43,897 nucleotides of DNA from contig NZ_CALXKQ010000023.1 in the NCBI RefSeq assembly GCF_944388875.1, positions 1-43,897 of the forward strand, written 5' to 3'. The notes below the pieces were generated by a model. The model saw only the letters and a list, made by a program, of their open reading frames with translations, had not been told where the DNA came from and did not search any database. The translations under genes were made by a program, and so were the position numbers. Of this stretch, positions 6,211 to 36,774 are shown one piece after another (within the stretch, counting starts at the first letter, position 1; each line of letters opens with the position of its first letter). Source of the stretch: an uncultured Brachyspira sp. Lineage in GTDB: Bacteria > Spirochaetota > Brachyspiria > Brachyspirales > Brachyspiraceae.

Positions 6211-6279
6211 CTCGGCTGTCGTTTCTATAAAACATAGATGTTTTTACACGAAAGTAAAAGCAGCTGTATACATATTATT

Positions 6280-6525
6280 TTATTTTTTATATAAGTAATA
6301 ATTTGTGCCTACTTGTGCGTTGTACCAAATCTGCCATTCTCCTATTTTTATAATACTTTCCTGATATCTTCTCATTAAATCCTGCCGATTTGTTACGGAC
6401 TTTATAATAAAGATTTCTGGAGGCGTAGAAAGCGGTGTTTTGACATATTTTATTTGTGCCTGACATGATGTTAATACTATTAAAATACTTATAAAAATTA
6501 TTAGATATGCTATTAAATGTTTCAT
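6280..6525 (-). CDS. Rz1-like outer-membrane lipoprotein spanin, nested
   Basis: 81 residues. The signal peptide MKHLIAYLIIFISILIV is followed by the lipobox LTSC, so lipidation at Cys20 or near is predicted. The short mature part is Pro-rich at its start (TPLSTPPE), as in Rz1. It begins inside the i-spanin gene in another frame and ends 7 bases beyond it, the classical embedded arrangement. AAGGAC precedes the start. By family knowledge it would sit in the outer membrane and join with the i-spanin to fuse inner and outer membranes at the end of lysis. It implies a host with an outer membrane. Confidence 0.8.
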   Translation of the reverse strand: MKHLIAYLIIFISILIVLTSCQAQIKYVKTPLSTPPEIFIIKSVTNRQDLMRRYQESIIKIGEWQIWYNAQVGTNYYLYKK

Positions 6526-26252: not shown

Positions 26253-26681
26253 ATGCCTGATAAAGCTAAAAAAGCCCCAAAAAACGCCAAAAATAAGCCC
26301 AAAAAAGCCGTTATAACACCAAATCCGCCAGAATATTTTAGTGGGTATTCTCTAAAAAAATGGGAAGAACTTGCACCTATTTTTGCTGAAAAAAATATGC
26401 TCGGACCTGCTGATTTATCAGCTTTTGAACTTTTATGTCTGCATTACGGTGATGCTATGCATCTCTATCAAGCTATGATTAATGAAGGAGGTTCTATCGC
26501 TGGATATTTAGAAGGGAAAAACTCTCAGACTATGGGCGAATATTTAGCTTATCATAAAGCTATAACAGCATATCATAAAATGCTTACTGAGTTTGGTTTA
26601 ACTCCTGCTTCAAAAAAGAAAGTTGTCATTCCTGAAACTATAGAAGAGAATGATCCGCTTGAAAAAATGATAAATGGTTAA
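26253..26681 (+). CDS. Terminase small subunit, P27 family
   Basis: 142 residues. A Lys-rich N-terminus (KKAPKNAKNKPKKA) is followed by the P27-type core: WEELAPIFAEKNMLGPADLSAF, LLCLHYGDAM and ITAYHKMLTEFGLTPASK. It recognises the packaging site and loads the large subunit. GGATTAGGAG before the ATG is a strong ribosome binding site. Unlike the head genes it is transcribed rightward, and the large subunit follows after six bases. Confidence 0.9.
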   Translation: MPDKAKKAPKNAKNKPKKAVITPNPPEYFSGYSLKKWEELAPIFAEKNMLGPADLSAFELLCLHYGDAMHLYQAMINEGGSIAGYLEGKNSQTMGEYLAYHKAITAYHKMLTEFGLTPASKKKVVIPETIEENDPLEKMING

Positions 26682-26687
26682 ATATAA

Positions 26688-28460
26688 ATGTATACCTATG
26701 AAGAATATATCAATAAAGTTATAAATAAAGAACTGCCAGTATGTCAAGCTGCTTTTTTATCTGTAAAAAGGCATTTGGATGATATTGAAAAATCAAAAAA
26801 TAATGATTATCCTTTTTATTTTGATGAGAACGAAGCTAAACGTCCTATCATGTTCATACAATCTTTAGTACATACAAAAGGCGAATGGGCTAATCATAAT
26901 ATTATACTAGAGCCTTGGGAACAGTTTATAATAGCAAGTATATTCGGATGGAGAAGAAAAGAAAATAAACTCAGACGTTACAAAAAAGCATACGTTCAGG
27001 TAAGCAGAAAAAATGGAAAAACTACTTTTGCATCTGGAATTGGGAATTATTGCTTTTTCTGCGACAGTCCTGCAGAGGCTGGTGTCGAAATATATTATAT
27101 AGCTACGAAAAAAGATCAAGCGAAAATTGCATGGAGCGAAAGCGAAAGGCAGATAAGAAAAGCAAAAGCTCTTAATAAAGAAGCGATTACATATAAACAA
27201 ACTTCTACAATTACAAAGAAAAAAGATACTGCCTCAAAATCCAAACCATTAGGACAGGACAGCAACACTGAAGACGGATTAAATCCGCATTTAGTTATAG
27301 TAGATGAATATCATGCACATCCTGATAATGAATTATTAAATGTTCTTGAATCTGGAATGGGAGCTAGAAGGCAGCCGCTTGTATTTATAATTACTACTGC
27401 TGGTTTTGATAAATCTTCTGTATGTTTTTCTGAATATGAATATGCAAAGCAAATATTAAAAGGTTCATTAAATAATGATGAATATTTTACAATAATATAT
27501 GAGCCTGACGACATCAATGATATTTGGGTATTTATGTCAGAATATAAAGAAAAATTGACAAAAAAAGAGGATATTTCAAAGCAGGAAGAATTAATAAATA
27601 AAATTATTTTTCAAGCTAATCCTAACATAAATATTTCTGTAAAAGACAGTTACTTAAAATCTAGGCTTTTAGAAGGACTAGATAAACCTATTCAGAGAAC
27701 AGATATTCTTACAAAAAACTTGAATATTTGGACACAGGCTAGTGAAGTTTGGATATCTTCTGACAGGTGGCTTAAATCTTATTTACATCAAAATATAAAT
27801 ATAAATGAATTAAAAGGCAGAAAAGCCTGCATCGGTTTAGATTTAGCAACTACAAGAGATATAGCAGCTTATGTTTTATGTTTTGATTCTATTGATAATG
27901 GTCCGTATATACTTTTGCCTCGCTTCTTTATGCCTAAAGAAAATATAAGACAGCGCTCTAAAGAGGACAGAGTACCTTATGAATTATGGGCTTCGCAAGG
28001 TTTAATTACTTTAACAAGCGGTGATATAATAGATTTTGATGTAATAGAATCTTCAATCTTAAATGATGCGAAAGATTTTGAAATTATAGAAATAGGCTAT
28101 GACCCTTGGAAAGCTATTGAAATAGTCACTCATTTGAAAAAAGAAGGGTTAAAAATGACAGATATAAGACAATCTTTTGCAGTCGGCGGTTTATCTGAAG
28201 GAACTTCTTTATTTGAAAAAACTATAGATGAGCGAAAACTTTTACATGGTAATAATGCTGTTCTTAATTGGATGATAAGCTGCTGTGAAGTAAGAACAGA
28301 CGGCAGGGATAATTATCTTCCTACTAAGCCTGATAGGCAAAGATCACGTAAAAGAATTGATGGTGTTGTAGCTTCTATTATGGCTCTTCATAGAGTGATT
28401 AAAAATCATTTTGAAGATACGAAAAGTATTTATGAAAGTGAAGGTGTATTTACTTTATAA
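26688..28460 (+). CDS. Terminase large subunit (TerL)
   Basis: 590 residues. The ATPase has Walker A VSRKNGKTT (about residue 105), Walker B LVIVDEYHAH (about 202) and a Thr/Asp coupling motif in IITTAGF. The nuclease domain shows the RNase H-like pattern GLDLATTRDIAAYVL (about 385) and later acidic residues (EIGYDPWKA). It packages DNA into proheads; the HK97-like family suggests cos or headful packaging, not decided here. It is followed by a strong hairpin terminator. Confidence 0.95.
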   Translation: MYTYEEYINKVINKELPVCQAAFLSVKRHLDDIEKSKNNDYPFYFDENEAKRPIMFIQSLVHTKGEWANHNIILEPWEQFIIASIFGWRRKENKLRRYKKAYVQVSRKNGKTTFASGIGNYCFFCDSPAEAGVEIYYIATKKDQAKIAWSESERQIRKAKALNKEAITYKQTSTITKKKDTASKSKPLGQDSNTEDGLNPHLVIVDEYHAHPDNELLNVLESGMGARRQPLVFIITTAGFDKSSVCFSEYEYAKQILKGSLNNDEYFTIIYEPDDINDIWVFMSEYKEKLTKKEDISKQEELINKIIFQANPNINISVKDSYLKSRLLEGLDKPIQRTDILTKNLNIWTQASEVWISSDRWLKSYLHQNININELKGRKACIGLDLATTRDIAAYVLCFDSIDNGPYILLPRFFMPKENIRQRSKEDRVPYELWASQGLITLTSGDIIDFDVIESSILNDAKDFEIIEIGYDPWKAIEIVTHLKKEGLKMTDIRQSFAVGGLSEGTSLFEKTIDERKLLHGNNAVLNWMISCCEVRTDGRDNYLPTKPDRQRSRKRIDGVVASIMALHRVIKNHFEDTKSIYESEGVFTL

Positions 28461-28463
28461 TCT

Positions 28464-28496
28464 GCATACTTTATATATTATATATAAAGTATGCAT
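28464..28496. terminator. Bidirectional terminator between terminase and small-gene cluster
   Basis: TGCATACTTTATATAT and ATATATAAAGTATGCA pair perfectly around one base. It lies between convergent genes and so serves both the terminase operon and the 28518-28916 gene. Confidence 0.8.
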
Positions 28497-28517: not shown

Positions 28518-28916
28518 TTACGATACTTTCAAATTGTCTATTTCATATTTTAGTTTATTCATATAGCTGTCTAATATTTTATTAATTTTATTTCTAATAG
28601 TTTTACTTTCTAATATATTTGATGATAATCTTAATAATACTGCATAATGCGATATAACATCTTGATCTGTTTCATCATCTATATAAGTTGTATATGTTGA
28701 GTATTTGCATATAGTTTTACTATCTTTTATGTGAGCCCCTATAATTTCAGTATATTTTCTTTTTCCATTTATATAATGTTCTATATATACTGCCGCATTA
28801 TATTGTGTTAAATCTACATATAGATTATTATTGTTCAATAATTTTCTTATTTCTACTGTAGCTTCTTCATTATTATTTTTTATTATTGCTAATTCTTTTT
28901 CTAATTGTTTATTCAT
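28518..28916 (-). CDS. Small unknown protein, cassette A
   Basis: 132 residues, mostly alpha-helical and Asn/Lys-rich, without Cys. A middle beta stretch reads YVDLTQYNAAVYIEHY. It belongs to no family I know. It is the last of four tandem one-gene units that share almost the same 5' leader. GAGGTAATT precedes the start. Proximity to defence genes and separate expression suggest an accessory role such as counter-defence, which is only a hypothesis. Confidence 0.65.
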   Translation of the reverse strand: MNKQLEKELAIIKNNNEEATVEIRKLLNNNNLYVDLTQYNAAVYIEHYINGKRKYTEIIGAHIKDSKTICKYSTYTTYIDDETDQDVISHYAVLLRLSSNILESKTIRNKINKILDSYMNKLKYEIDNLKVS

Positions 28917-29000
28917 TTTTAATTACCTCTTTTTTAATTATTTATGTGATGACAATAACTCTGTTCCGAAAGATAGCAAGTCCTTTTCCTCCGAAACCAT
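28917..29000 (-). promoter_or_regulatory. Conserved leader, copy A
   Basis: First of four near-identical leaders. On the minus strand it contains GGACTTGCTATCTTTCGG and CAGAGTTATTGTCATCAC, then AAAGAGG before the ATG. A 13-codon frame (28938-28979, TTG start, LLSFGTELLSSHK, TAA) has GGAGG upstream in this copy only. See findings. Confidence 0.7.
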
Positions 29001-29030
29001 AATTTTTTCACACTTATTTCTCAAAATTAA

Positions 29031-29063
29031 GGCAAAAAAATAAGGGGCTTAATGCCCCTTATT
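29031..29063 (-). terminator. Terminator of cassette B
   Basis: AATAAGGGGC and GCCCCTTATT form a 10-bp stem around ATTAA on the minus strand, followed by seven T. A clear rho-independent terminator. Confidence 0.85.
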
Positions 29064-29067
29064 GCTA

Positions 29068-29274
29068 TTAAAGCCCTTTCATAAATAGCTTACATCCTGC
29101 TATATTATTATTAATACTTTCTCTTAATTCTTTATAATCTGATATAATATCTTTGTTATCGTCAAGCATTTCAATTAAAGATTCAAAGCGAGTTATAGCA
29201 TAACTATATTTTTCTTCTTTTACTAAATCTAATCCTTGTTTATAATTAATTAAAAATAATGTTAAGTTAATCAT
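29068..29274 (-). CDS. Small unknown protein, cassette B
   Basis: 68 residues from the ATG at 29274. An in-frame ATG at 29298 lies upstream of the AAAGAGG ribosome binding site and is rejected. The protein is helical: a hydrophobic N-terminus (MINLTLFLINYKQGL) and a repeat-like part (LVKEEKYSYAITRFESLIEML) resembling one TPR-type helical hairpin. It stands alone between its own leader and terminator. Function unknown. Confidence 0.65.
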   Translation of the reverse strand: MINLTLFLINYKQGLDLVKEEKYSYAITRFESLIEMLDDNKDIISDYKELRESINNNIAGCKLFMKGL

Positions 29275-29360
29275 GTTGCTTACCTCTTTTCTAATCATTT
29301 ATGTGATGACAATAACTCTGTTCCGAAAGATAGCAAGTTCTTTTCCGCAGAAAAGTTATT
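29275..29360 (-). promoter_or_regulatory. Conserved leader, copy B
   Basis: Same core as copies A, C and D. Upstream it has the inverted repeat CTTTTCTGCGGAAAAG, a possible operator. The small leader frame ends in TGA here, not TAA, so the stop is kept despite a base change. Confidence 0.7.
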
Positions 29361-29388
29361 TTTTTCGCACTATTTTTTTTAATTAAGG

Positions 29389-29420
29389 CAAAAAAATAAA
29401 GGGCGTTAAGCCCCTTATTT
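29389..29420 (-). terminator. Terminator of cassette C
   Basis: A stem of ten positions with one mismatch (AATAAGGGGC against GCCCTTTATT on the minus strand), then a T run. Nearly identical to the terminator of cassette B. Confidence 0.8.
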
Positions 29421-29428
29421 TTATAAAA

Positions 29429-29743
29429 TTACATTCTATACAATATATAATTAGTATCTTTTTTCATTATTTTATTTTTATCAAACTTATTTTTTTTGTT
29501 TTTAACAAAATCAGCAAATTGCTTAGTATTAAACTCTTTAAATACATTTAATATTGCTTGTATATTAACATCAATTATAAGTTCCTTTTTTTCTTTATCA
29601 TACACCCTTGAAAAAAAATCTTCTTCAAGTGTAAAGCAATCATCTTCTATTATAAAATTAGCTATAACCTCAGATGAAGCTTTAGAAAAATTAGTGTTTT
29701 CTAATATTTTTTTAGTAATACTATCTAATGTAAAAGTTGTCAT
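29429..29743 (-). CDS. Small unknown protein, cassette C (paralogue of D)
   Basis: 104 residues, with acidic stretches (IIEDDCFTLEEDFF) and a basic C-terminal part. The segment VFKEFNTKQFADFVKNKKN matches FYQEFNTDGFVKYLEENEN in cassette D at the same relative position, so the two are divergent paralogues. It is expressed from its own leader and ends at its own terminator. No known family. Confidence 0.7.
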   Translation of the reverse strand: MTTFTLDSITKKILENTNFSKASSEVIANFIIEDDCFTLEEDFFSRVYDKEKKELIIDVNIQAILNVFKEFNTKQFADFVKNKKNKFDKNKIMKKDTNYILYRM

Positions 29744-29830
29744 TTTATTTACCTCTTTTTAATTATTTATGTGATGACAATAACTCTGTTTGGAAAGATA
29801 GCAAGTTCTTTTCCGCAAAAAAGTTATTTT
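29744..29830 (-). promoter_or_regulatory. Conserved leader, copy C
   Basis: Identical core except TTTCCAAACAG in place of TTTCGGAACAG. In the 13-codon leader frame this changes one codon, GGA to CAA. Confidence 0.7.
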
Positions 29831-29857
29831 TTTCAGACATCAATTAAAAATTAGGGC

Positions 29858-29891
29858 AAAAAACAATGGGCTTTAAAGCCCATTGTTTAAT
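29858..29891 (-). terminator. Terminator of cassette D
   Basis: A perfect 22-bp palindrome, CAATGGGCTTT with its complement AAAGCCCATTG, followed on the minus strand by TTTTTTG. A strong rho-independent terminator of different stem sequence from B and C but in the same place. Confidence 0.85.
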
Positions 29892-29906
29892 ATAATTATT
29901 GTATTA

Positions 29907-30209
29907 TTATTCTATATAGCATATTACTAAATCATCATCACTAATTAATATATTATCCCCATACAAATTTTCATTTTCTTCTAAATATTTAACAAAACCA
30001 TCTGTATTAAACTCTTGATAAAAATCTTTGATAATATCATAACCTATAGATACTTCATATTCATTATTATCCTCATTTAATACAGCTATAATTGGTAATG
30101 ATGAACCTTGCTCATTCTCTAATAAATATTTTGCTAATAATTCAGCAGCTTTCTCTGAGTAGTATTCTTTTAATCCTTCTACTATACTATTAAAATCAAA
30201 ATTAATCAT
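29907..30209 (-). CDS. Small acidic unknown protein, cassette D (paralogue of C)
   Basis: 100 residues, strongly acidic (ENEQGSS, NEDNNEYE, SDDDLV), with a single domain of mixed alpha/beta pattern. It shares the EFNT-F motif region with cassette C. Small acidic proteins near phage defence genes are often DNA mimics or anti-restriction factors, but nothing in the sequence proves that here. It is the first gene of the cluster, divergent from the coiled-coil protein at 30386. Confidence 0.7.
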   Translation of the reverse strand: MINFDFNSIVEGLKEYYSEKAAELLAKYLLENEQGSSLPIIAVLNEDNNEYEVSIGYDIIKDFYQEFNTDGFVKYLEENENLYGDNILISDDDLVICYIE

Positions 30210-30295
30210 GTTAATTACCTCTTTTTTTAATTATTTATGTGATGACAATAACTCTGTTCCAAAAGATAGCAAGTTCTTTTCTGCAAAAGTTTTAT
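30210..30295 (-). promoter_or_regulatory. Conserved leader, copy D
   Basis: Fourth copy, with TTTTGGAACAG (synonymous in the 13-codon frame). Upstream lies GCAGAAAAG. It occupies most of the divergent region before the gene at 30386. Confidence 0.7.
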
Positions 30296-30385
30296 TTTTT
30301 ATACCCAAAATATTAAATTGTGTGTAAATGTAATTTTTATTATTTATAAATACAATAATTATAATAATAATTTTAAGGAGATATT

Positions 30386-30655
30386 ATGGATTCAAGGAAT
30401 AGTGTATCAATTAATTTTAATCAAGATATATATAGATGGATTGTTAAAATGGTGAAAAATAGTAAAGCAGATCCTTTAAATTATTCAAATGCCACTTTCG
30501 GTGGTTTTGTACAGGCTTGTGTTGCAAAAGCTAAAAAAGAATGGGAAGAGAAAGGCAGCGAAATGCAAAAATTAGAAAAAAGAGTAGCAGAATTAGAAGA
30601 AACTGTAAAAAGAATTGATGAATTAGAAACTAAAATTAAAGAATTAGAAAAATGA
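30386..30655 (+). CDS. Coiled-coil protein, possible DNA-binding regulator
   Basis: 89 residues. The N-terminal part (SINFNQDIYRWIVKMVKN) is amphipathic and could form a small alpha/beta DNA-binding fold. The C-terminal 35 residues are a regular leucine-type coiled coil (MQKLEKRVAELEETVKRI, DELETKIKELEK). Such a protein would dimerise or trimerise. AAGGAG precedes the start. It diverges from the leader-cassette cluster and could control it; this is conjecture. Confidence 0.7.
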   Translation: MDSRNSVSINFNQDIYRWIVKMVKNSKADPLNYSNATFGGFVQACVAKAKKEWEEKGSEMQKLEKRVAELEETVKRIDELETKIKELEK

Positions 30656-30887
30656 TGCTCATACCCCCTAATAAAAAAGTTATCGCCATGTATAAAAGAC
30701 TCCCCACTCGTTGCACCGAGTAAAAGCCTGTAGAGATTTTCCCCACCCCCTGCCAAGCAAATATAAATCAGTTATAATTCGAATAAGAAAAAAATTAAAA
30801 TAATTTATTATTTTTTTGTTGAAAAAGTATTGACAAAATCATCAAAAATGATATAATAATATTATCCTTAAAGTTAAGGAGGTAAAA
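30656..30887 (+). other. Non-coding region upstream of the peptide genes
   Basis: It has a weak hairpin ACTCG/CGAGT (30706-30721) that may end the 30386 gene. Near 30830 begins the promoter of the peptide unit. No other gene is visible. Confidence 0.6.
30830..30857 (+). promoter_or_regulatory. Perfect sigma-70 promoter for the first peptide
   Basis: TTGACA (30830-30835), 16-bp spacer, TATAAT (30852-30857). The spacer includes ATCAT and ATGAT as an inverted repeat. Transcription would start near 30864. TCCTTA (30865-30870) can pair with TAAGGA (30875-30880), which overlaps the ribosome binding site AAGGAGG. Confidence 0.85.
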
Positions 30888-30968
30888 ATGGAAGTTCTAA
30901 CTTTCATAACTGCGGTTATCAATTTAGTGTCTGCTATTATAATCGTAGTTAAATCAATTAAAGATTAA
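30888..30968 (+). CDS. Small hydrophobic peptide, type I toxin candidate
   Basis: 26 residues, one membrane helix (TFITAVINLVSAIIIVV) and a charged end (KSIKD). This is the form of type I toxins such as Fst/Ldr/TxpA-like peptides. AAGGAGG lies just upstream but can be paired in a short hairpin. A perfect promoter precedes it and a perfect promoter on the other strand at 31034-31061 points back at it. A related peptide lies 96 bases downstream. Toxicity is inferred from form and context. Confidence 0.65.
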   Translation: MEVLTFITAVINLVSAIIIVVKSIKD

Positions 30969-31027
30969 AACCTTTGATTGATTACGAAAGGGAGTCAAGT
31001 TGGTAGCTTGGCTCCTGAACTTCCATA
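30889..31027 (-). ncRNA. Predicted antisense RNA (antitoxin)
   Basis: Predicted only from the antisense promoter; the 3' end is not defined and is drawn at the peptide start. It would be complementary to the peptide mRNA, including the region around 30992-31016. In type I systems such RNAs block translation or trigger RNase decay. Confidence 0.45.
30992..31016. other. Hairpin between the two peptide genes
   Basis: GGAGTCAAG and CTTGGCTCC pair with one G-T-type mismatch around 7 bases. It would be present in both the toxin mRNA and the antisense transcript, possibly as a shared terminator or kissing loop. Confidence 0.6.
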
Positions 31028-31033
31028 CTTACT

Positions 31034-31061
31034 ATTATATATAAATTATATGAGGTGTCAA
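31034..31061 (-). promoter_or_regulatory. Perfect antisense promoter
   Basis: On the minus strand TTGACA (31061-31056), 16-bp spacer, TATAAT (31039-31034): both hexamers match consensus and the spacer equals that of the facing promoter. Transcription from about 31027 would run leftward through the hairpin and across the first peptide gene, giving an antisense RNA. Confidence 0.8.
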
Positions 31062-31063
31062 GT

Positions 31064-31177
31064 ATGCTTTCAACAATAACTGCAATAATTAATATTGTTA
31101 CATTATGTCTTAATATAACAATATTAATAATTTTATTTAAGAAAGGAAATAAAAATGGAAGTAAAGAAAAAAGATAA
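31064..31177 (+). CDS. Second small hydrophobic peptide
   Basis: 37 residues. STITAIINIVTLCLN and ITILIILF form one membrane helix, then a basic tail (KKGNKNGSKEKR). It is recognisably related to the first peptide (shared T-I-T-A-I-I-N pattern). GAGGTG precedes the ATG. The sequence around the start (AAGTATG) can pair with CATACTT at 31025-31031, which would hide it. It overlaps the start of the next gene by 23 bases. Confidence 0.6.
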   Translation: MLSTITAIINIVTLCLNITILIILFKKGNKNGSKEKR

Positions 31178-31379
31178 TAGAGGCGGTGCTAGAGCAAATA
31201 CGGGCGGAGCTCGTGAAGGTTCAGGCAGAAAAAGAATAATAGAGGATAGACTTGACATTAAATTATATATGCGTGTTAGTGAAAAAGAACAGCTCCTAAT
31301 AAAAGAAAAAGCAGAACAGAATAATGTCAGTGTATCTCAATATATTAGAGATGCTGTATTAAAAGAATTAAATATATAA
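31155..31379 (+). CDS. Ribbon-helix-helix protein with Gly-Ala-Arg N-terminus
   Basis: 74 residues. The N-terminus (NRGGARANTGGAREGSGRK) has the repeated GGAR/GxGRK motif seen in small phage and plasmid DNA-binding proteins. Then follows a MetJ/Arc/CopG-type ribbon-helix-helix: IKLYMRVSEKEQLLIKEKA then VSVSQYIRDAVLKEL. It binds DNA as a dimer and probably represses its own unit or the peptide promoters. It overlaps the second peptide frame, so it belongs to the same unit. It ends just before a strong bidirectional terminator. Confidence 0.85.
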   Translation: MEVKKKDNRGGARANTGGAREGSGRKRIIEDRLDIKLYMRVSEKEQLLIKEKAEQNNVSVSQYIRDAVLKELNI

Positions 31380-31394
31380 TTTATTAATTATAGG

Positions 31395-31422
31395 TGTTGC
31401 GATAATAAAGGTTATCGCAACA
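31395..31422. terminator. Bidirectional terminator at the left edge of the defence operon
   Basis: TGTTGCGATAA and TTATCGCAACA form an 11-bp perfect stem with 6-base loop between convergent genes. A shorter version of the same core (CGATAA/TTATCG, then CAACAC) lies at the other edge, 35691-35708. Confidence 0.8.
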
Positions 31423-31431
31423 ATTATATTT

Positions 31432-33174
31432 TTAGAATTTAAATAGCTTATCATCTTGAGATAATGATAAGGTTGTATATTTATCTACATCTATTTCAGG
31501 CGGTAGTTTATCTTTTAAAACAGATATTATGTATTGACAGTTAATATTATTTAATACATCTAATACTAAATTATTTATTTGATTATTATGAACTTTTTCC
31601 ATTTCATCAAGTAATATAAAATGTAAACATTTTATATTATTTTTATCTGCAAATAGTATATATGATAAATCAAATGCTTCTATTTGTGTTATTTTTCTCC
31701 CTGAACCAGAAGGTTTATTTTCATATGGTATAATATTAATAGTATAATTCTTAACTTTACTTTTATCTTCCTTTTCTTCTAAAGTAAGAACCAATTTTTC
31801 TCCATATAATTTGTATGATATTTCAGAAAAAATATCATTAAACTCTGTAATTTTTTTAGATATTAAATCACTATAAGAAACATTTTCTTCTTCTATAGCT
31901 TTTAATCTTTTATTTATTTCATTAATATTAGAATTAGAATCTTTCCACATAGATAATTTTGATTCCAATGTACCTCTATCTTCGTAAAGTATATTTAATT
32001 CATTTATAATGAGATTTAATTCCTCTATAGTAGAACTTTTTTTCAAAATATTAGTATAATGTTTTTCTTCTTCTAAAAGTTCATTTAATTCTAATTCCAA
32101 ATGAATTATTTTGGATTCTAAATCAGGAAGTTCTTTTGTAATAAAACTGATTTTATTAACTATCATAGAATTATGAAACTTAAGTGTATCATCAAAACTT
32201 TTATGTATATTTGGAATAAATTTTTTAACTTCCTCATACAGATACTTTATATATTCAATATCTATATTTACTTTATTATTTTCTAGTTCATTTTTGCTTT
32301 CAATAATTAGATTTTTTCTCATATTTAATGCTGAAATATCTGTGTTCAAACGATTAATATTTCTTTTTATATTATCTAATTTATTTAAATCTTCTTTATA
32401 ATTTTCATTAATATTTAAATTATCTTTCAACTTTTCTTTTTCTTCAATTTCTTTATTCTTTAAATGTAATTTTTGTTCTAAAACAGCCAATGAACCATCT
32501 TTTTCTAACCTTGATTGCAATTTTTCTTCTAAATCTTTTTGTGATTTTAATTGAGCTTTTTCTTGTGATAAATTAGAATGTATCCCAAACCAAAATAAAT
32601 ATAAAGCTTCATATTCTGTAGATTTTGTAGCGGGATGCAATACTTTTACTATATTTTCAAGTCTTATTTTTTCATACCTTATATTTTTTGATATAATTTG
32701 TCTAAAGCTTGGTTTGTTATAATCATAATTAAATATTAATTTATTTAATAGCAACCCAGCATTAGATTCATCATTGTTAGAACTATAACTAACATCTTTA
32801 TTGTTTATAGTACATATTTTTTCTTTATTTGATAAAAAATTGCGTTTTATTATAATATTATTGGATTTATTATCATTTAAGTTGTCTGTCAATATTAATG
32901 TAATTAATACTTTGTTTTTTATTAGAAAATCTTTGATTGTATATGTTCCATCATCAGTTTCACCAAATTCATTATCTTTATATATATTTTTTCCATCTCC
33001 GCCTAAACAAAAATCTATTAATTTTAATAAAGTAGTTTTTCCAACATCGTTTCCAGATGAAGTTTTATCTTCTTTTGGTGTATTATCAAGTATTAAATTT
33101 AATCCCATATGAAATGGGATTTCTCTTATTATTTCACCATCATTCTTTTCTATTAGTATTTTTTTTATAAACAT
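31432..33174 (-). CDS. DUF2326-type SMC-like ABC ATPase of an ABC-3C system
   Basis: 580 residues. Walker A is SGNDVGKTTLLKLIDF (near residue 42). Two long coiled-coil arms occupy about 200-460. The C-terminal DUF2326 domain contains SGSGRKITQIEAFDLSYILF (ABC-signature region) and a Walker B-like HFILLDEMEKV. In the ABC-three-component systems described by comparative genomics, this ATPase senses or grips DNA and controls the effector through a middle component. It is the last gene of a four-gene operon and overlaps the middle-component gene by 10 bases. Confidence 0.85.
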   Translation of the reverse strand: MFIKKILIEKNDGEIIREIPFHMGLNLILDNTPKEDKTSSGNDVGKTTLLKLIDFCLGGDGKNIYKDNEFGETDDGTYTIKDFLIKNKVLITLILTDNLNDNKSNNIIIKRNFLSNKEKICTINNKDVSYSSNNDESNAGLLLNKLIFNYDYNKPSFRQIISKNIRYEKIRLENIVKVLHPATKSTEYEALYLFWFGIHSNLSQEKAQLKSQKDLEEKLQSRLEKDGSLAVLEQKLHLKNKEIEEKEKLKDNLNINENYKEDLNKLDNIKRNINRLNTDISALNMRKNLIIESKNELENNKVNIDIEYIKYLYEEVKKFIPNIHKSFDDTLKFHNSMIVNKISFITKELPDLESKIIHLELELNELLEEEKHYTNILKKSSTIEELNLIINELNILYEDRGTLESKLSMWKDSNSNINEINKRLKAIEEENVSYSDLISKKITEFNDIFSEISYKLYGEKLVLTLEEKEDKSKVKNYTINIIPYENKPSGSGRKITQIEAFDLSYILFADKNNIKCLHFILLDEMEKVHNNQINNLVLDVLNNINCQYIISVLKDKLPPEIDVDKYTTLSLSQDDKLFKF

Positions 33175-33395
33175 ATCTTTATCTCTTCATCTTCTATGTT
33201 TAAAATATCTATCATAAATAACCAATCAAAAGAAAAAAGTAATAAAGACATAGATATATTTTCTTTTTTATTTACTTCTTTATATACCTCTATGATATCC
33301 AATTTATCAGTATTTTGTTTCTTTAATACTTCTATAACTAGAGCCCCAACATAATATAGATTTTTATTTGGAGTTATATCTTTACTCACTATCAT
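33165..33395 (-). CDS. ABC-3C middle component (MC6-like)
   Basis: 76 residues. KNLYYVGALVIEVLKK followed by LDIIEVYKEV and SFDWLFMIDILNIEDEEI matches the winged-helix pattern of small ABC-3C middle components, closest in my judgement to type 6. It would link the effector to the ATPase. Both neighbours overlap it (1 and 10 bases), so strict stoichiometric expression is likely. Confidence 0.72.
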   Translation of the reverse strand: MIVSKDITPNKNLYYVGALVIEVLKKQNTDKLDIIEVYKEVNKKENISMSLLLFSFDWLFMIDILNIEDEEIKICL

Positions 33396-34207
33396 TATTT
33401 AGGCTCCTCTAATATTTTACATCTAATAAAAGCATCTACAAGAATAATAGGTAAAGCAATATATACATCGTCTTCTTCTACATTGGATAAACAATTTTCT
33501 ATTCTTTCTTTTATATTATCAAATATATTATCGCTATTTTCTCTTATAATATTTATATCGTTTGTTCCATTATAATTTTCCTTTATCTCATCTATATAAA
33601 ATTGTCTAATTTTTCTTAATAATTTTGTTTTTTTAAAAGAATTGAAATTTTCTAATTCTTTATATATAGCATCTATCTTTCCATAATATACTTTGTATTC
33701 ATCTATATATATTTTATTATGTTTTAAATTATTATATAATATTTTATTATCTATATCAAAAATTTCTGCCTTATTATCATAATCTAAATTATCTACATCC
33801 ATATTAGCAATATGTTCTATAGCTATTTCAAGTACCCCATTATTTTCATTAATTTTTTTAGAAATGGCTTCTGATTCTCGTTTTGTTTTCCATTGATGTA
33901 ATAAATCTATAGTATATTTTTCAGGTGATTTATCTATTTGAGTGTGGCAATTAGGGCACAAAAGAATTAAATTATGAAAATCCTTTAATTCTTTTTCAGA
34001 AATATTAGGGTTAGCTCTTGGACCTTTTTCAGAATGTGCAATTATATGAGCAATATAACCAATATTGATATATTTTCCATTTTCATTTATAAAAATATTT
34101 TTATTACAATCTGGATTATAACATCTATTTAAACTGAGTGCATGTAATTTTTTTAATGTTAATATACTATATGATCTTGGTTTTTGTTTATTATCATTAT
34201 TTTTCAT
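33395..34207 (-). CDS. HNH nuclease effector with ABC-3C C-terminal domain
   Basis: 270 residues. The N-terminal HNH domain has a zinc site (CYNPDC, later CPNCH), AHIIAHSEKGPRANP and NLILLCPNCHTQID, with the His-Asn-His positions intact. The C-terminal 130 residues are helical and without known catalytic motifs, as expected for the ABC-3C interaction domain (VYIALPIILVDAFIRCK at the end). It would cut DNA when activated by phage infection. It starts four bases after the RHH gene and overlaps the middle component by one. Confidence 0.82.
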   Translation of the reverse strand: MKNNDNKQKPRSYSILTLKKLHALSLNRCYNPDCNKNIFINENGKYINIGYIAHIIAHSEKGPRANPNISEKELKDFHNLILLCPNCHTQIDKSPEKYTIDLLHQWKTKRESEAISKKINENNGVLEIAIEHIANMDVDNLDYDNKAEIFDIDNKILYNNLKHNKIYIDEYKVYYGKIDAIYKELENFNSFKKTKLLRKIRQFYIDEIKENYNGTNDINIIRENSDNIFDNIKERIENCLSNVEEDDVYIALPIILVDAFIRCKILEEPK

Positions 34208-34210
34208 AAT

Positions 34211-34399
34211 CTACTCTTTAATTAATTTTGCAAGAGTAACTTTACGTACATACTGCCCAACACTTAAATTTTCTTTCTGAGCATAAGTATTAATAAGATT
34301 ATACATCTCTTTGGTAAGCCTAAACATAACTCTTATATCAGCTTTTTCACTTCCATGTATTTTTCTGCCAGCTCCATTTCTAGCTCCACCTCTTGGCAT
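34211..34399 (-). CDS. Ribbon-helix-helix repressor of the defence operon
   Basis: 62 residues from the ATG at 34399, where AAGGAT is well placed; a longer frame to 34441 is rejected. It opens RGGARNGAGRK, the same motif as the 31155 gene, then an RHH fold: IRVMFRLTKEMYNLINTYA, SVGQYVRKVTLAKL. It is first in the defence operon and directly follows an operator-like inverted repeat that covers the -35 regions of the divergent promoters, so it probably silences the operon in the lysogen. Confidence 0.85.
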   Translation of the reverse strand: MPRGGARNGAGRKIHGSEKADIRVMFRLTKEMYNLINTYAQKENLSVGQYVRKVTLAKLIKE

Positions 34400-34429
34400 A
34401 AAGATATCCTTTTTATTTGATATAATTAT

Positions 34430-34500
34430 AGTATATAGCATTTATTTGAAAAAGTCCACTTTATTCAATAAAAAACATGTATGAATAAGGTTGACTTTTT
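34430..34500. promoter_or_regulatory. Divergent promoters inside a long inverted repeat
   Basis: Leftward: TGGACT (34458-34453), 17 bp, TATACT (34435-34430), facing the RHH gene. Rightward: TTGACT at 34491-34496 with a weak -10. The two -35 boxes sit in the arms of an imperfect inverted repeat, AAAAAGTCCACTTTATTC (from 34449) and GAATAAGGTTGACTTTTT (to 34500). A good candidate operator for the RHH protein. Confidence 0.7.
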
Positions 34501-34582
34501 TTATAATTAATATATCTTAAACAAATCATTTAGATAAAATTCTAAAGATTACAATATAGTTATTAGGTATAAGGAACTTATT

Positions 34583-35665
34583 ATGAATAATATATATTTT
34601 GATGAAGCTGGTAATACAGGATTTCAGTTATTAAATGAAGAACAGCCTATATATATATTATCAGGAAATACTTTAGAAGAAACAGAGTCTAAAAATATAT
34701 TAGAAAAATATTTTTCTGATATAGAAAAATTACATTTTGTTAAATTAAAAAAAAATTCTAAGGGAAAAAAAGAATTAATTAATTTTATAAAAAAAGAAAT
34801 GAATTCATTGAATAGTTATTTTTATACTTCTATTATACATAAAGAATTTTTTTTACTCATACAAATATTAGATCACATTATTGAGCCTCAAATGTATAGA
34901 GATGGTATAGATTATTATGATAGAGGATTTCATATAGCATTTTCTAATATAATGTTTTTTTCTTTACCTGTAGTTTGTGATAAAAATATACTTCATAATA
35001 TGTATATGAAATATTTAAAAATGATAAGAATAAAAGATGAAAAAACAATTAAAAATTTTGAAGAGGAATTATATAAATTAATTGATACATGTAAAAATGA
35101 TGATATAAAAAGATTTATCCAAATTTTAACAATGTATGAAGATTTGAATGAATATGTAAATAGTGAATCTACTAATAGTTTAGATCCATCTATGCATGCA
35201 TTAGTCAGCATATGTTTATATTTAAATGAAAAATATAATGATGGATTTACTGTATGCCATGACCAATCAAATATGATATATAATCAAGAAGATAAACTTT
35301 TATTCTTATCAAATAAAAAAATTCCAAATGTTAAAATAGGGTATGGTAAATTTAAATCTATACTTCCATTAAAAATATTAAATGTTAAATTTTTAAATAG
35401 TGAAGAAAGTTATTCCATTAAATTATGTGATATTATTTCTGGAATTTTGTTTTCATATGTAAGAAATATTTTAAATGAAAAATTTGATAATGAATTATTT
35501 AATGATGAAATAAAATCTATTTGTAAAGAATGGAAATATACACATATGGTATATCCATCAATAGAGAATGTAAAACCAATTGAAGATATGAAGAAAGAAA
35601 ATGGAGATATAAATTTACTAGATTTTTTTGCTGAAAATGATTTTGGTATGAGATTTAAAATATAA
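34583..35665 (+). CDS. DUF3800 protein
   Basis: 360 residues. The N-terminal YFDEAGNTGFQLL is the defining Asp-Glu-Ala-Gly motif of DUF3800, a predicted RNase H-like family often found near mobile elements and defence systems. Other acidic points are HDQSNMIYNQEDKL and SYSIKLCDIISGIL. It is longer than many family members (usually 220-300). It is divergent from the ABC-3C operon and shares its operator region, so the two are probably co-regulated. Nuclease activity is predicted for the family but not shown here. Confidence 0.82.
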   Translation: MNNIYFDEAGNTGFQLLNEEQPIYILSGNTLEETESKNILEKYFSDIEKLHFVKLKKNSKGKKELINFIKKEMNSLNSYFYTSIIHKEFFLLIQILDHIIEPQMYRDGIDYYDRGFHIAFSNIMFFSLPVVCDKNILHNMYMKYLKMIRIKDEKTIKNFEEELYKLIDTCKNDDIKRFIQILTMYEDLNEYVNSESTNSLDPSMHALVSICLYLNEKYNDGFTVCHDQSNMIYNQEDKLLFLSNKKIPNVKIGYGKFKSILPLKILNVKFLNSEESYSIKLCDIISGILFSYVRNILNEKFDNELFNDEIKSICKEWKYTHMVYPSIENVKPIEDMKKENGDINLLDFFAENDFGMRFKI

Positions 35666-35690
35666 TCTAACTTATAATTATTATATAATA

Positions 35691-35708
35691 CGATAACAGT
35701 AATTATCG
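35691..35708. terminator. Terminator between DUF3800 and integrase units
   Basis: CGATAA and TTATCG pair around six bases between convergent genes. The core and the flanking CAACAC echo the hairpin at 31395-31422. Confidence 0.6.
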
Positions 35709-35719
35709 CAACACTGTAT

Positions 35720-35848
35720 CTAATTGATATAATCTAAAATAAGTTTTTTTATATACTTACGTACACTCATATTATTTTCTTTAGCTAATCTTTTTAATAG
35801 CTTATATTCTTTATATGTGAATCTGCAAACTATTAATCTTTTTTTCAT
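35720..35848 (-). CDS. Mini ribbon-helix-helix protein coupled to Int2
   Basis: 42 residues, FTYKEYKLLKRLAKENNMSV then RKYIKKLILDYIN. This is nearly a bare RHH helical hairpin preceded by one short strand (RLIVCRF). Its ATG overlaps the integrase stop by one base (TAATG), so it is translated by coupling. It may be an excisionase-like directionality factor or a repressor. Short genes after integrases often have this role, but the fold alone does not prove it. Confidence 0.65.
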   Translation of the reverse strand: MKKRLIVCRFTYKEYKLLKRLAKENNMSVRKYIKKLILDYIN

Positions 35849-36774
35849 TATTCTACCTCTAAACTTTTTAAGTATATTCCTGTTATAGCTATACTGCTAT
35901 GATTTAATGCCTGTCTAATAAGTTCTATGTCTTTAGTTTGTTTGTATAGAGTAACAGCAAAATAATGCCTTATATCATGTATAGAGTAGGCAGCTTTTAT
36001 TTTGCCTTGTTTATATAAACGCTTTGAACTCCTATAAAAAATGTTTCTTATCACTTCAGAACTTTTATTTTTGAAAGGCTTATCAAAAGAAAGATTGTTC
36101 TTTTTTAATTCTTTTATAACTTTGTCAGTAACTTTCCAGCTTATTTCTTTTCCTTTTGAATATGAATAATATTTATTATTTCTTATTTCTAATTTAGGTA
36201 AAGCACCAACACGCACACCGCATTCCATTATAAAAATGATGGCCACTTTTATAAGCGGATCTGATATATCTTTAATTATTAATTCAATTTCTTTTTTAGT
36301 TGGTACTTCCAAACGTTTTTTATTTTTCACAGGAGGACGAGTTTTTGTCCCTCGAAAAGGATTTTTAATAAATGGATATCTTCTTTCTAAAAAAGAAAAG
36401 AAAGAGGAACAGGAAGAAACTAATGCACGTATACTTAAATTAGAAAGCTCGCTTGAATTAACTTCTGTTATAAAGTCATCAGCTTCTCTTGCTTTAATAA
36501 ATAAAATATTTTTATTATTCATATTACAGTATTCCTCTAGTTTATTAAGTCCGTTTTTATACTGTCTTTTTGTGTGATTGCTTTTTGTTTTTGAACATTG
36601 CTTAAAAAAGTTTTCTTTCTCTGTTTCATAATCTATCTGCTTAATAAGCTGCTCTTCCTTCATATAATCAAGTATATTTAAATAGTTAGCTTGTTTGTAA
36701 AGAAGTTCTGCTTGCTCTTGGCTTATTATATTATTCCTTTTTAATATTAATTCATTCTTTTTTTTAGAAGACAT
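35848..36774 (-). CDS. Second tyrosine recombinase/integrase (Int2)
   Basis: 308 residues. The core-binding part (about 60-145) includes SNHTKRQYKNGLNKLEEYC. The catalytic residues are Arg in CGVRVGALPK, Lys in YSKGKEISWK, His-Arg in HDIRHYFAV, His in LNHSSIAIT and Tyr in GIYLKSL. It differs clearly from Int1. GGAAAGG precedes the start. It closes the accessory island on the right, so it may have brought in that block, or may be the phage integrase while Int1 serves another purpose. Confidence 0.9.
   Translation of the reverse strand: MSSKKKNELILKRNNIISQEQAELLYKQANYLNILDYMKEEQLIKQIDYETEKENFFKQCSKTKSNHTKRQYKNGLNKLEEYCNMNNKNILFIKAREADDFITEVNSSELSNLSIRALVSSCSSFFSFLERRYPFIKNPFRGTKTRPPVKNKKRLEVPTKKEIELIIKDISDPLIKVAIIFIMECGVRVGALPKLEIRNNKYYSYSKGKEISWKVTDKVIKELKKNNLSFDKPFKNKSSEVIRNIFYRSSKRLYKQGKIKAAYSIHDIRHYFAVTLYKQTKDIELIRQALNHSSIAITGIYLKSLEVE

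Follow-up and report, generated by a model that had tools for sequence, protein, structure and literature searches.

The window analysed here is an entire Brachyspira contig of 43,897 bases, taken from a 3.1-Mb host genome, and it carries a prophage in which capsid, portal, terminase, integrase and replication genes are all present. The interval from terL (3′ end) to the plus-strand gene orf30386 is occupied by four minus-strand genes, each with an ~80-base leader upstream (Table 1). A preliminary description of this DNA had noted that a nearly identical leader precedes each of the four open reading frames, and this is confirmed both by alignment and by nhmmer, which finds all four copies. The terS and terL genes (26253–28460) run opposite to the portal, capsid and tail genes, an arrangement shared by every related prophage that was checked. 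A second tyrosine recombinase, which is XerC-like, is encoded at the opposite end of the contig (963–2201).

Table 1. Features of the cassette array and its borders in the window (positions of the 43,897-base contig).
Feature	Position	Strand	Basis or remark
orf30386, divergent small gene, candidate regulator	30386..30655	+	Model with helix-helix-coiled coil
Leader 1, promoter-like block of C1	30219..30295	-	nhmmer, alignment; core NNN = TGG
Cassette gene C1, 100 aa, orphan family C	29907..30209	-	ORF; AlphaFold pLDDT 86.5; without fold match
Terminator of C1	29862..29887	-	AACAATGGGC / GCCCATTGTT, then T-run; dG about -14.6
Leader 2	29751..29829	-	nhmmer; core NNN = CCA
Cassette gene C2, 104 aa, distant paralogue of C1	29429..29743	-	ORF
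Terminator of C2	29399..29416	-	GC hairpin and T-tail; dG about -13.9
Leader 3	29281..29361	-	nhmmer; core NNN = CGG
Cassette gene B3, 68 aa, TPR-like helical family B	29068..29274	-	ORF; weak TPR matches
Terminator of B3	29039..29063	-	GC hairpin and T-tail; dG about -14.9
Leader 4	28924..29003	-	nhmmer; core NNN = CGG
Cassette gene A132, 132 aa, orphan family A	28518..28916	-	ORF; family A always terL-proximal
A+T-rich 14-bp palindrome where array and terL converge; possible bidirectional terminator	28464..28494	.	No T-run
terL, fixed right-hand boundary of array site	26688..28460	+	Context

The terminators that had been assigned individually to C1, C2 and B3 are indeed present as GC hairpins with T-tails, and those of C2 and B3 were picked up by two separate scans. 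Across the arrays, a terminator follows the majority of the genes. A terminator common to A132 and terL is plausible at the palindrome between them, which neither terminator scan detected. The B3 gene has an alternative, longer in-frame start at 29298, within its leader; both the relatives of B3 and the AAAGAGG site support the start at 29274.

The core of the leader reads GAAAAGAACTTGCTATCTTT-NNN-AACAGAGTTATTGTCA, and its 18-base half CAGAGTTATTGTCATCAC has four exact matches against 0.02 expected from dinucleotide shuffles. The whole genome contains exactly four copies of the leader and no fifth, and all of them are tied to cassette genes, so that the leader is not the common dispersed repeat that the preliminary description had weighed as an alternative. 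A BLAST search with the leader identified it in 13 of 26 Brachyspira genomes (11 substantial matches and two 35-base fragments), among them B. alvinipulli ATCC 51933 and B. pilosicoli PC5538III-hc, as well as in nine IMG/VR records of viral contigs. The core gave no match in the phage record collection and, across the databases searched, is confined to Brachyspira genomes and to viral contigs bearing these arrays, where the leader precedes only the cassette gene families described below.

A profile search of the fetched loci yielded about 19 arrays with 62 leaders, duplicates having been set aside, and all of the arrays reside in one prophage family. The largest, in genome G025, comprises eight leaders and ten genes. 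Every array for which a flank is sequenced occupies the site between terL and orf30386, with the exception of pieces in genome G005, and prophages with a 96–99% identical terL are found without an array at the same site. A collapsed array is present in G007, in which only an internal remnant of an A gene separates terL from orf30386. The G005 sequence appears to be misassembled around its arrays, and the assembly is probably chimeric at the array pieces; it was weighted down accordingly in the analysis. Pieces of the G005 array join unrelated genes, such as a chemoreceptor gene in locus L050, and in locus L049 (~6270–6340) the stretch AGATCGGAAGAGCGTC, located just upstream of a leader, resembles a sequencing adapter. 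The pattern of one gene per unit is not universal, as H130, E75 and one B1 cassette have no leader; these cassettes have lost it, their terminator or leader being truncated, and are probably read together with the preceding gene.

The genes that follow the leaders were assigned to families A, B, C, E and F, with B and C each comprising four subfamilies; sequence comparison identifies H and D as probable distant relatives of A. The proposal that C1 and C2 are distant paralogues proved sound: BLASTP finds no match between them, and hhalign relates them with P = 2e-4 within a four-member family, C1–C4. Profile searches with families A, B and C in Brachyspira return matches only in or beside arrays, apart from one marginal family B match in G019 (E 4e-4), and the family C profile has no match in another genus among 296 genomes of the phylum. 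Median dN/dS values of 0.11–0.56 demonstrate purifying selection, and thus the cassette reading frames are real genes. Comparison of their products with Pfam, PHROGs, PADLOC, NCBIfam and the PDB produced chance-level matches only, save for family B, which carries a vague TPR-like signal. Fold searches with the C1 model against the PDB and BFVD gave no significant match, and the best Z value in a VIA-align comparison was 3.3. The cassette products may serve as accessory factors during infection or lysogeny.

The leader is likewise under purifying selection. Across the 135-base block between genes, the copies are 63–81% identical to the reference copy, and the core is nearly identical. Among the 62 leaders, the 23-base core is identical in 55 and differs by 1.6% on average, as compared to synonymous-site differences of 15–29% among cassette-gene orthologues of those families that are better sampled; the values for B1 and B2, each represented by two or three genes, are lower. 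The DNA between the genes is thus more alike than the genes themselves, as had been suggested from the window.

By inspection of its sequence, the core most likely contains a weak promoter of the sigma70 type (TTGCTA, 16 bp, TATTGT). The spacing of these hexamers is constant across the leaders, A and T tracts upstream of them are conserved, and insertions and deletions occur only downstream. Because the hexamers agree with the consensus at only 8 of 12 bases, and a promoter scan at a cut-off of 9/12 found no promoter common to the leaders, we infer the promoter function from this conservation; each cassette gene would be transcribed separately. The leader is far longer than a usual promoter and lies directly upstream of the ribosome-binding site, as might be expected if it were instead a structured RNA, such as a riboswitch-like 5′ untranslated region, or a translational enhancer. 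We consider this very unlikely, given that RNAalifold analysis of 24 leaders gave −1.0 kcal/mol and five pairs with zero compensatory change, hence no covarying pairs, and that all Rfam matches to the leader lie far below the gathering scores. The absence of a conserved RNA structure favours action of the leader at the level of DNA.

The order of the cassettes is conserved. When arrays are collapsed to subfamilies, the consensus is D, E, C4, C3, C1, C2, F, B2/B1/B3/B4, H, A124, A132, and without G005 only 1 of 140 gene pairs conflicts with it, as against a mean of 30.7 and a minimum of 16 in 2000 shuffles. Two conflicts occur overall, one in G005 and the other a B2-B1-B2 duplication in G025, the B2 cassettes of which are 95.6% identical. 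The first gene of the arrays varies (C1, C4, D, E, B1, B3 or A), whereas the terL-side end, where sequenced, is always occupied by family A, as a gene or as the remnant of one. No core lies beyond this last gene, and a constant A end is therefore expected from recombination between direct core repeats.

The position of the junction can be read from the sequences flanking the core. To the left of the core, the segment from −75 to −10 tracks the upstream gene (0.83–0.84, as against 0.70–0.78 under permutation; two segments were tested, with p = 0.0005 and p = 0.0015), and no effect of the downstream gene on the left-hand segments is seen in the same test. To the right of the core, the segment tracks the downstream gene (p = 0.007), with a similarity of 0.904 as against 0.866 where only the upstream gene is in common; in a stricter test of 41 junctions, the effect of the downstream gene on the short right-hand segment was not significant (p = 0.37). 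Each flank thus goes with the gene on its own side, which puts the switch point inside the core; the cores are too invariant for individual breakpoints to be located exactly. The preliminary description held that cassettes were gained or shuffled by recombination through the shared blocks. The linkage of the flanks upholds recombination through the block, and the conserved order, which fits deletion and duplication between repeats, speaks against free shuffling of cassettes.

Leaders within one array are also more alike than expected, strongly so in the upstream block (p = 0.0005) and weakly in the NNN positions (p = 0.04), a sign that leaders may have been partly homogenised within an array. 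Ordinary tandem duplication followed by divergence, with the likeness of the leaders due to recency or strong selection and no recombination at the core, would account for the fact that neighbouring genes are paralogues (C1–C4, B1–B4 and A/H) and is compatible with the strong constraint on the core. The genes within an array are, however, more diverged than their leaders, array content differs greatly among close relatives, and the flanks follow their respective neighbour genes when the neighbours change, which requires exchange at the core. We therefore judge duplication and divergence alone to be an improbable account. Homologous recombination between cores, RecA- or phage-driven, would be the process at work.

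A constant junction at direct repeats and one-gene units are also features of an integron-like system, in which the core would be the recombination site of the tyrosine recombinase encoded nearby (35848–36774), which would excise and insert cassettes; such a recombinase lies within a few kb in most of these prophages. It is equally conserved in prophages without an array, however, and thus looks like the prophage integrase. It scores 34 of 265 bits, far under the cut-off of the integron integrase model TIGR02249, and no gene in the genome reaches that cut-off, so that an IntI is not found. The inverted arms of the core measure 7 nt, a length reached in 174 of 200 shuffles, and give no indication of an attC site. 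Moreover, integron insertion at one end should scramble the order of the cassettes, yet the order is conserved. An integron-like origin is consequently the least credible of the alternatives, with hardly any likelihood in our estimation.

On the far side of orf30386, a slot extends to the integrase (30656–35847) and in the window prophage is filled with ABC-3C genes. This operon (31432–34207) encodes an ATPase with DUF2326, MC6 and HNH-CTD10, and also matches the PADLOC candidate PDC-M68; no close copy is present in the other prophages fetched. Loci L047, L053, L060, L041, L059, L074 and L075 each have their own set of genes in this slot, often of a defence-like kind. A DUF3800 gene (34583–35665) adjoins the ABC-3C operon, and another is found in the slot of L053. 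Small proteins of ribbon-helix-helix type with a conserved N-terminal GGAR-G-GRK motif (in the window at 31155–31379 and 34211–34441) recur beside the cargo in many of the prophages. In addition, two hydrophobic reading frames of ~26 and ~36 aa with similar starts (30889–31170) recall the membrane toxins of type I toxin-antitoxin systems.

Cargo in other prophages includes a GHKL ATPase, a GmrSD-like protein with a cytosine methyltransferase, and a toxin-antitoxin-like pair. Three arrays, with four, six and eight leaders, adjoin a slot without substantial cargo, and prophages without an array fill the slot as well. As the cargo is independent of the presence of the array, the array and the ABC-3C operon are independent features, and the earlier suggestion of a counter-defence locus, which was drawn from their adjacency, is not supported: the cargo differs by prophage or is absent, and there is no match to a defence model. 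Counter-defence against ABC-3C, restriction or CRISPR concerns the function of the products and is compatible with the recombining array that we favour. Small orphan phage proteins encoded in a variable array beside a defence-cargo slot follow the general pattern of anti-defence loci, and C1 has a very weak match to the AcrIIA4 model (E 0.019; 15 of 40 bits). This match is seen in only two of 15 C proteins at a chance-level E-value, the C1 model has no fold match, the cassette proteins have zero PADLOC matches, and arrays stand beside empty slots and unrelated cargo alike. A counter-defence role is thus somewhat unlikely.

The gene that adjoins the first leader, orf30386, is 67–90% identical across prophages. 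Prophages with the same terL that lack the array and also lack orf30386 are found in G010, G004 (its second prophage) and G022 (contig 3), and the gene is shortened or broken in the array-less prophages of G002 (contig 5), G015 and G020, with G007 as an exception. A stop codon interrupts it in two array-bearing prophages, those of G025 and G012. This distribution is suggestive of a link between orf30386 and the array, and its product may regulate the cassettes. The predicted structure consists of two helices and a coiled coil with low confidence for the first residues; a ribbon-helix-helix fold is possible, and profile searches with orf30386 showed no link to that family.

Taken together, the locus is probably a tandem array of one-gene accessory cassettes, belonging to a family of temperate Brachyspira phages, in which a promoter-like leader doubles as the joint for homologous recombination. 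A unit would be made up of the invariant leader and one small orphan gene, usually joined by an intrinsic terminator. The putative promoter in the leader may depend on a regulator encoded by the phage, for which the adjacent orf30386 is a candidate, in which case all cassettes could be switched together and still be transcribed one by one. The cores, being direct repeats, would allow homologous recombination to delete, duplicate or exchange whole cassettes with a constant junction, and recombination from core to core could thereby leave a variable set of genes with a kept order, a kept last (A) gene and partly homogenised leaders.

Cassettes of a comparable kind, the PeSLs (promoter early stem-loops), have reportedly been characterized in T4-type phages by Arbiol and colleagues in 2010 and by Comeau and colleagues in 2014. 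In two other articles, the PeSL is described as a repeated intergenic unit of terminator stem-loop and promoter between small accessory genes, and is proposed to drive exchange of these genes by homologous recombination (PMC4503421, PMC3950731). As far as these secondary descriptions of PeSLs allow comparison, the Brachyspira array shares the terminator and promoter-like block between small genes and the exchange by recombination in the repeated unit, which is evident here from the linkage switch at the core and the varied gene content. It differs in that it belongs to a temperate spirochaete phage family, occupies a single site and conserves its order; its invariant core of ~40 bases is unrelated in sequence, its promoter is putative, and neither the T4 early-promoter sequence nor a T4-like phage is found.

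In halovirus HGTV-1, most left-arm reading frames are preceded by a conserved TATA-like motif and an inverted repeat, an arrangement that the authors of the study liken to PeSLs (PMC3950731). This virus shares the repeated promoter-like motif ahead of many small viral genes, but it is an archaeal virus, its motif is spread over half a genome, and an inverted repeat is included. The SAS and ESAS elements of Cluster K mycobacteriophages are 13-bp repeats scattered across the genome, with a presumed role in translation (PMC3203893). Like the Brachyspira leader, they are found immediately before the start codons of certain phage genes, consistently for orthologues; the leader, by contrast, is ~80 bp long, in tandem, at a single locus and accompanied by terminators.

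Prophage morons are accessory genes that are each equipped with a promoter and a terminator (compare PMC7067206). The cassettes resemble them as accessory genes with a promoter-like leader and a terminator, inserted between core phage genes; some close relatives lack them at this site, and they have a distinct base composition (20–23% GC, as against 31.5% in the phage structural genes). They differ from morons in forming up to eight leader-bearing tandem units with one common leader, which evolve as a set. The known phages of Brachyspira are VSH-1, pphBhCH20 and pP1–pP5, and their descriptions in the available portions of the two source articles mention no such array (PMC8845278, PMC3532143).

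The array would extend the concept of a repeated regulatory block as a recombination joint, proposed for T4-type phages, to temperate phages of spirochaetes, and offers a compact case with a fixed site, a known order, a constant junction and about 19 natural variants. A single search with the 23-base core now suffices to read any cassette-bearing Brachyspira prophage genome. Several orphan families are confined to the arrays and under purifying selection, and are worth testing as accessory or anti-defence factors. A more far-reaching reading, which we regard as unlikely, is that the array stores phage inhibitors of host functions or defences in a library that can be expanded, with a single phage-specific promoter serving as the recombination joint and orf30386, as a dedicated regulator, switching all cassettes simultaneously. 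If so, the phages of this family would trade inhibitors from core to core and retain their regulation.
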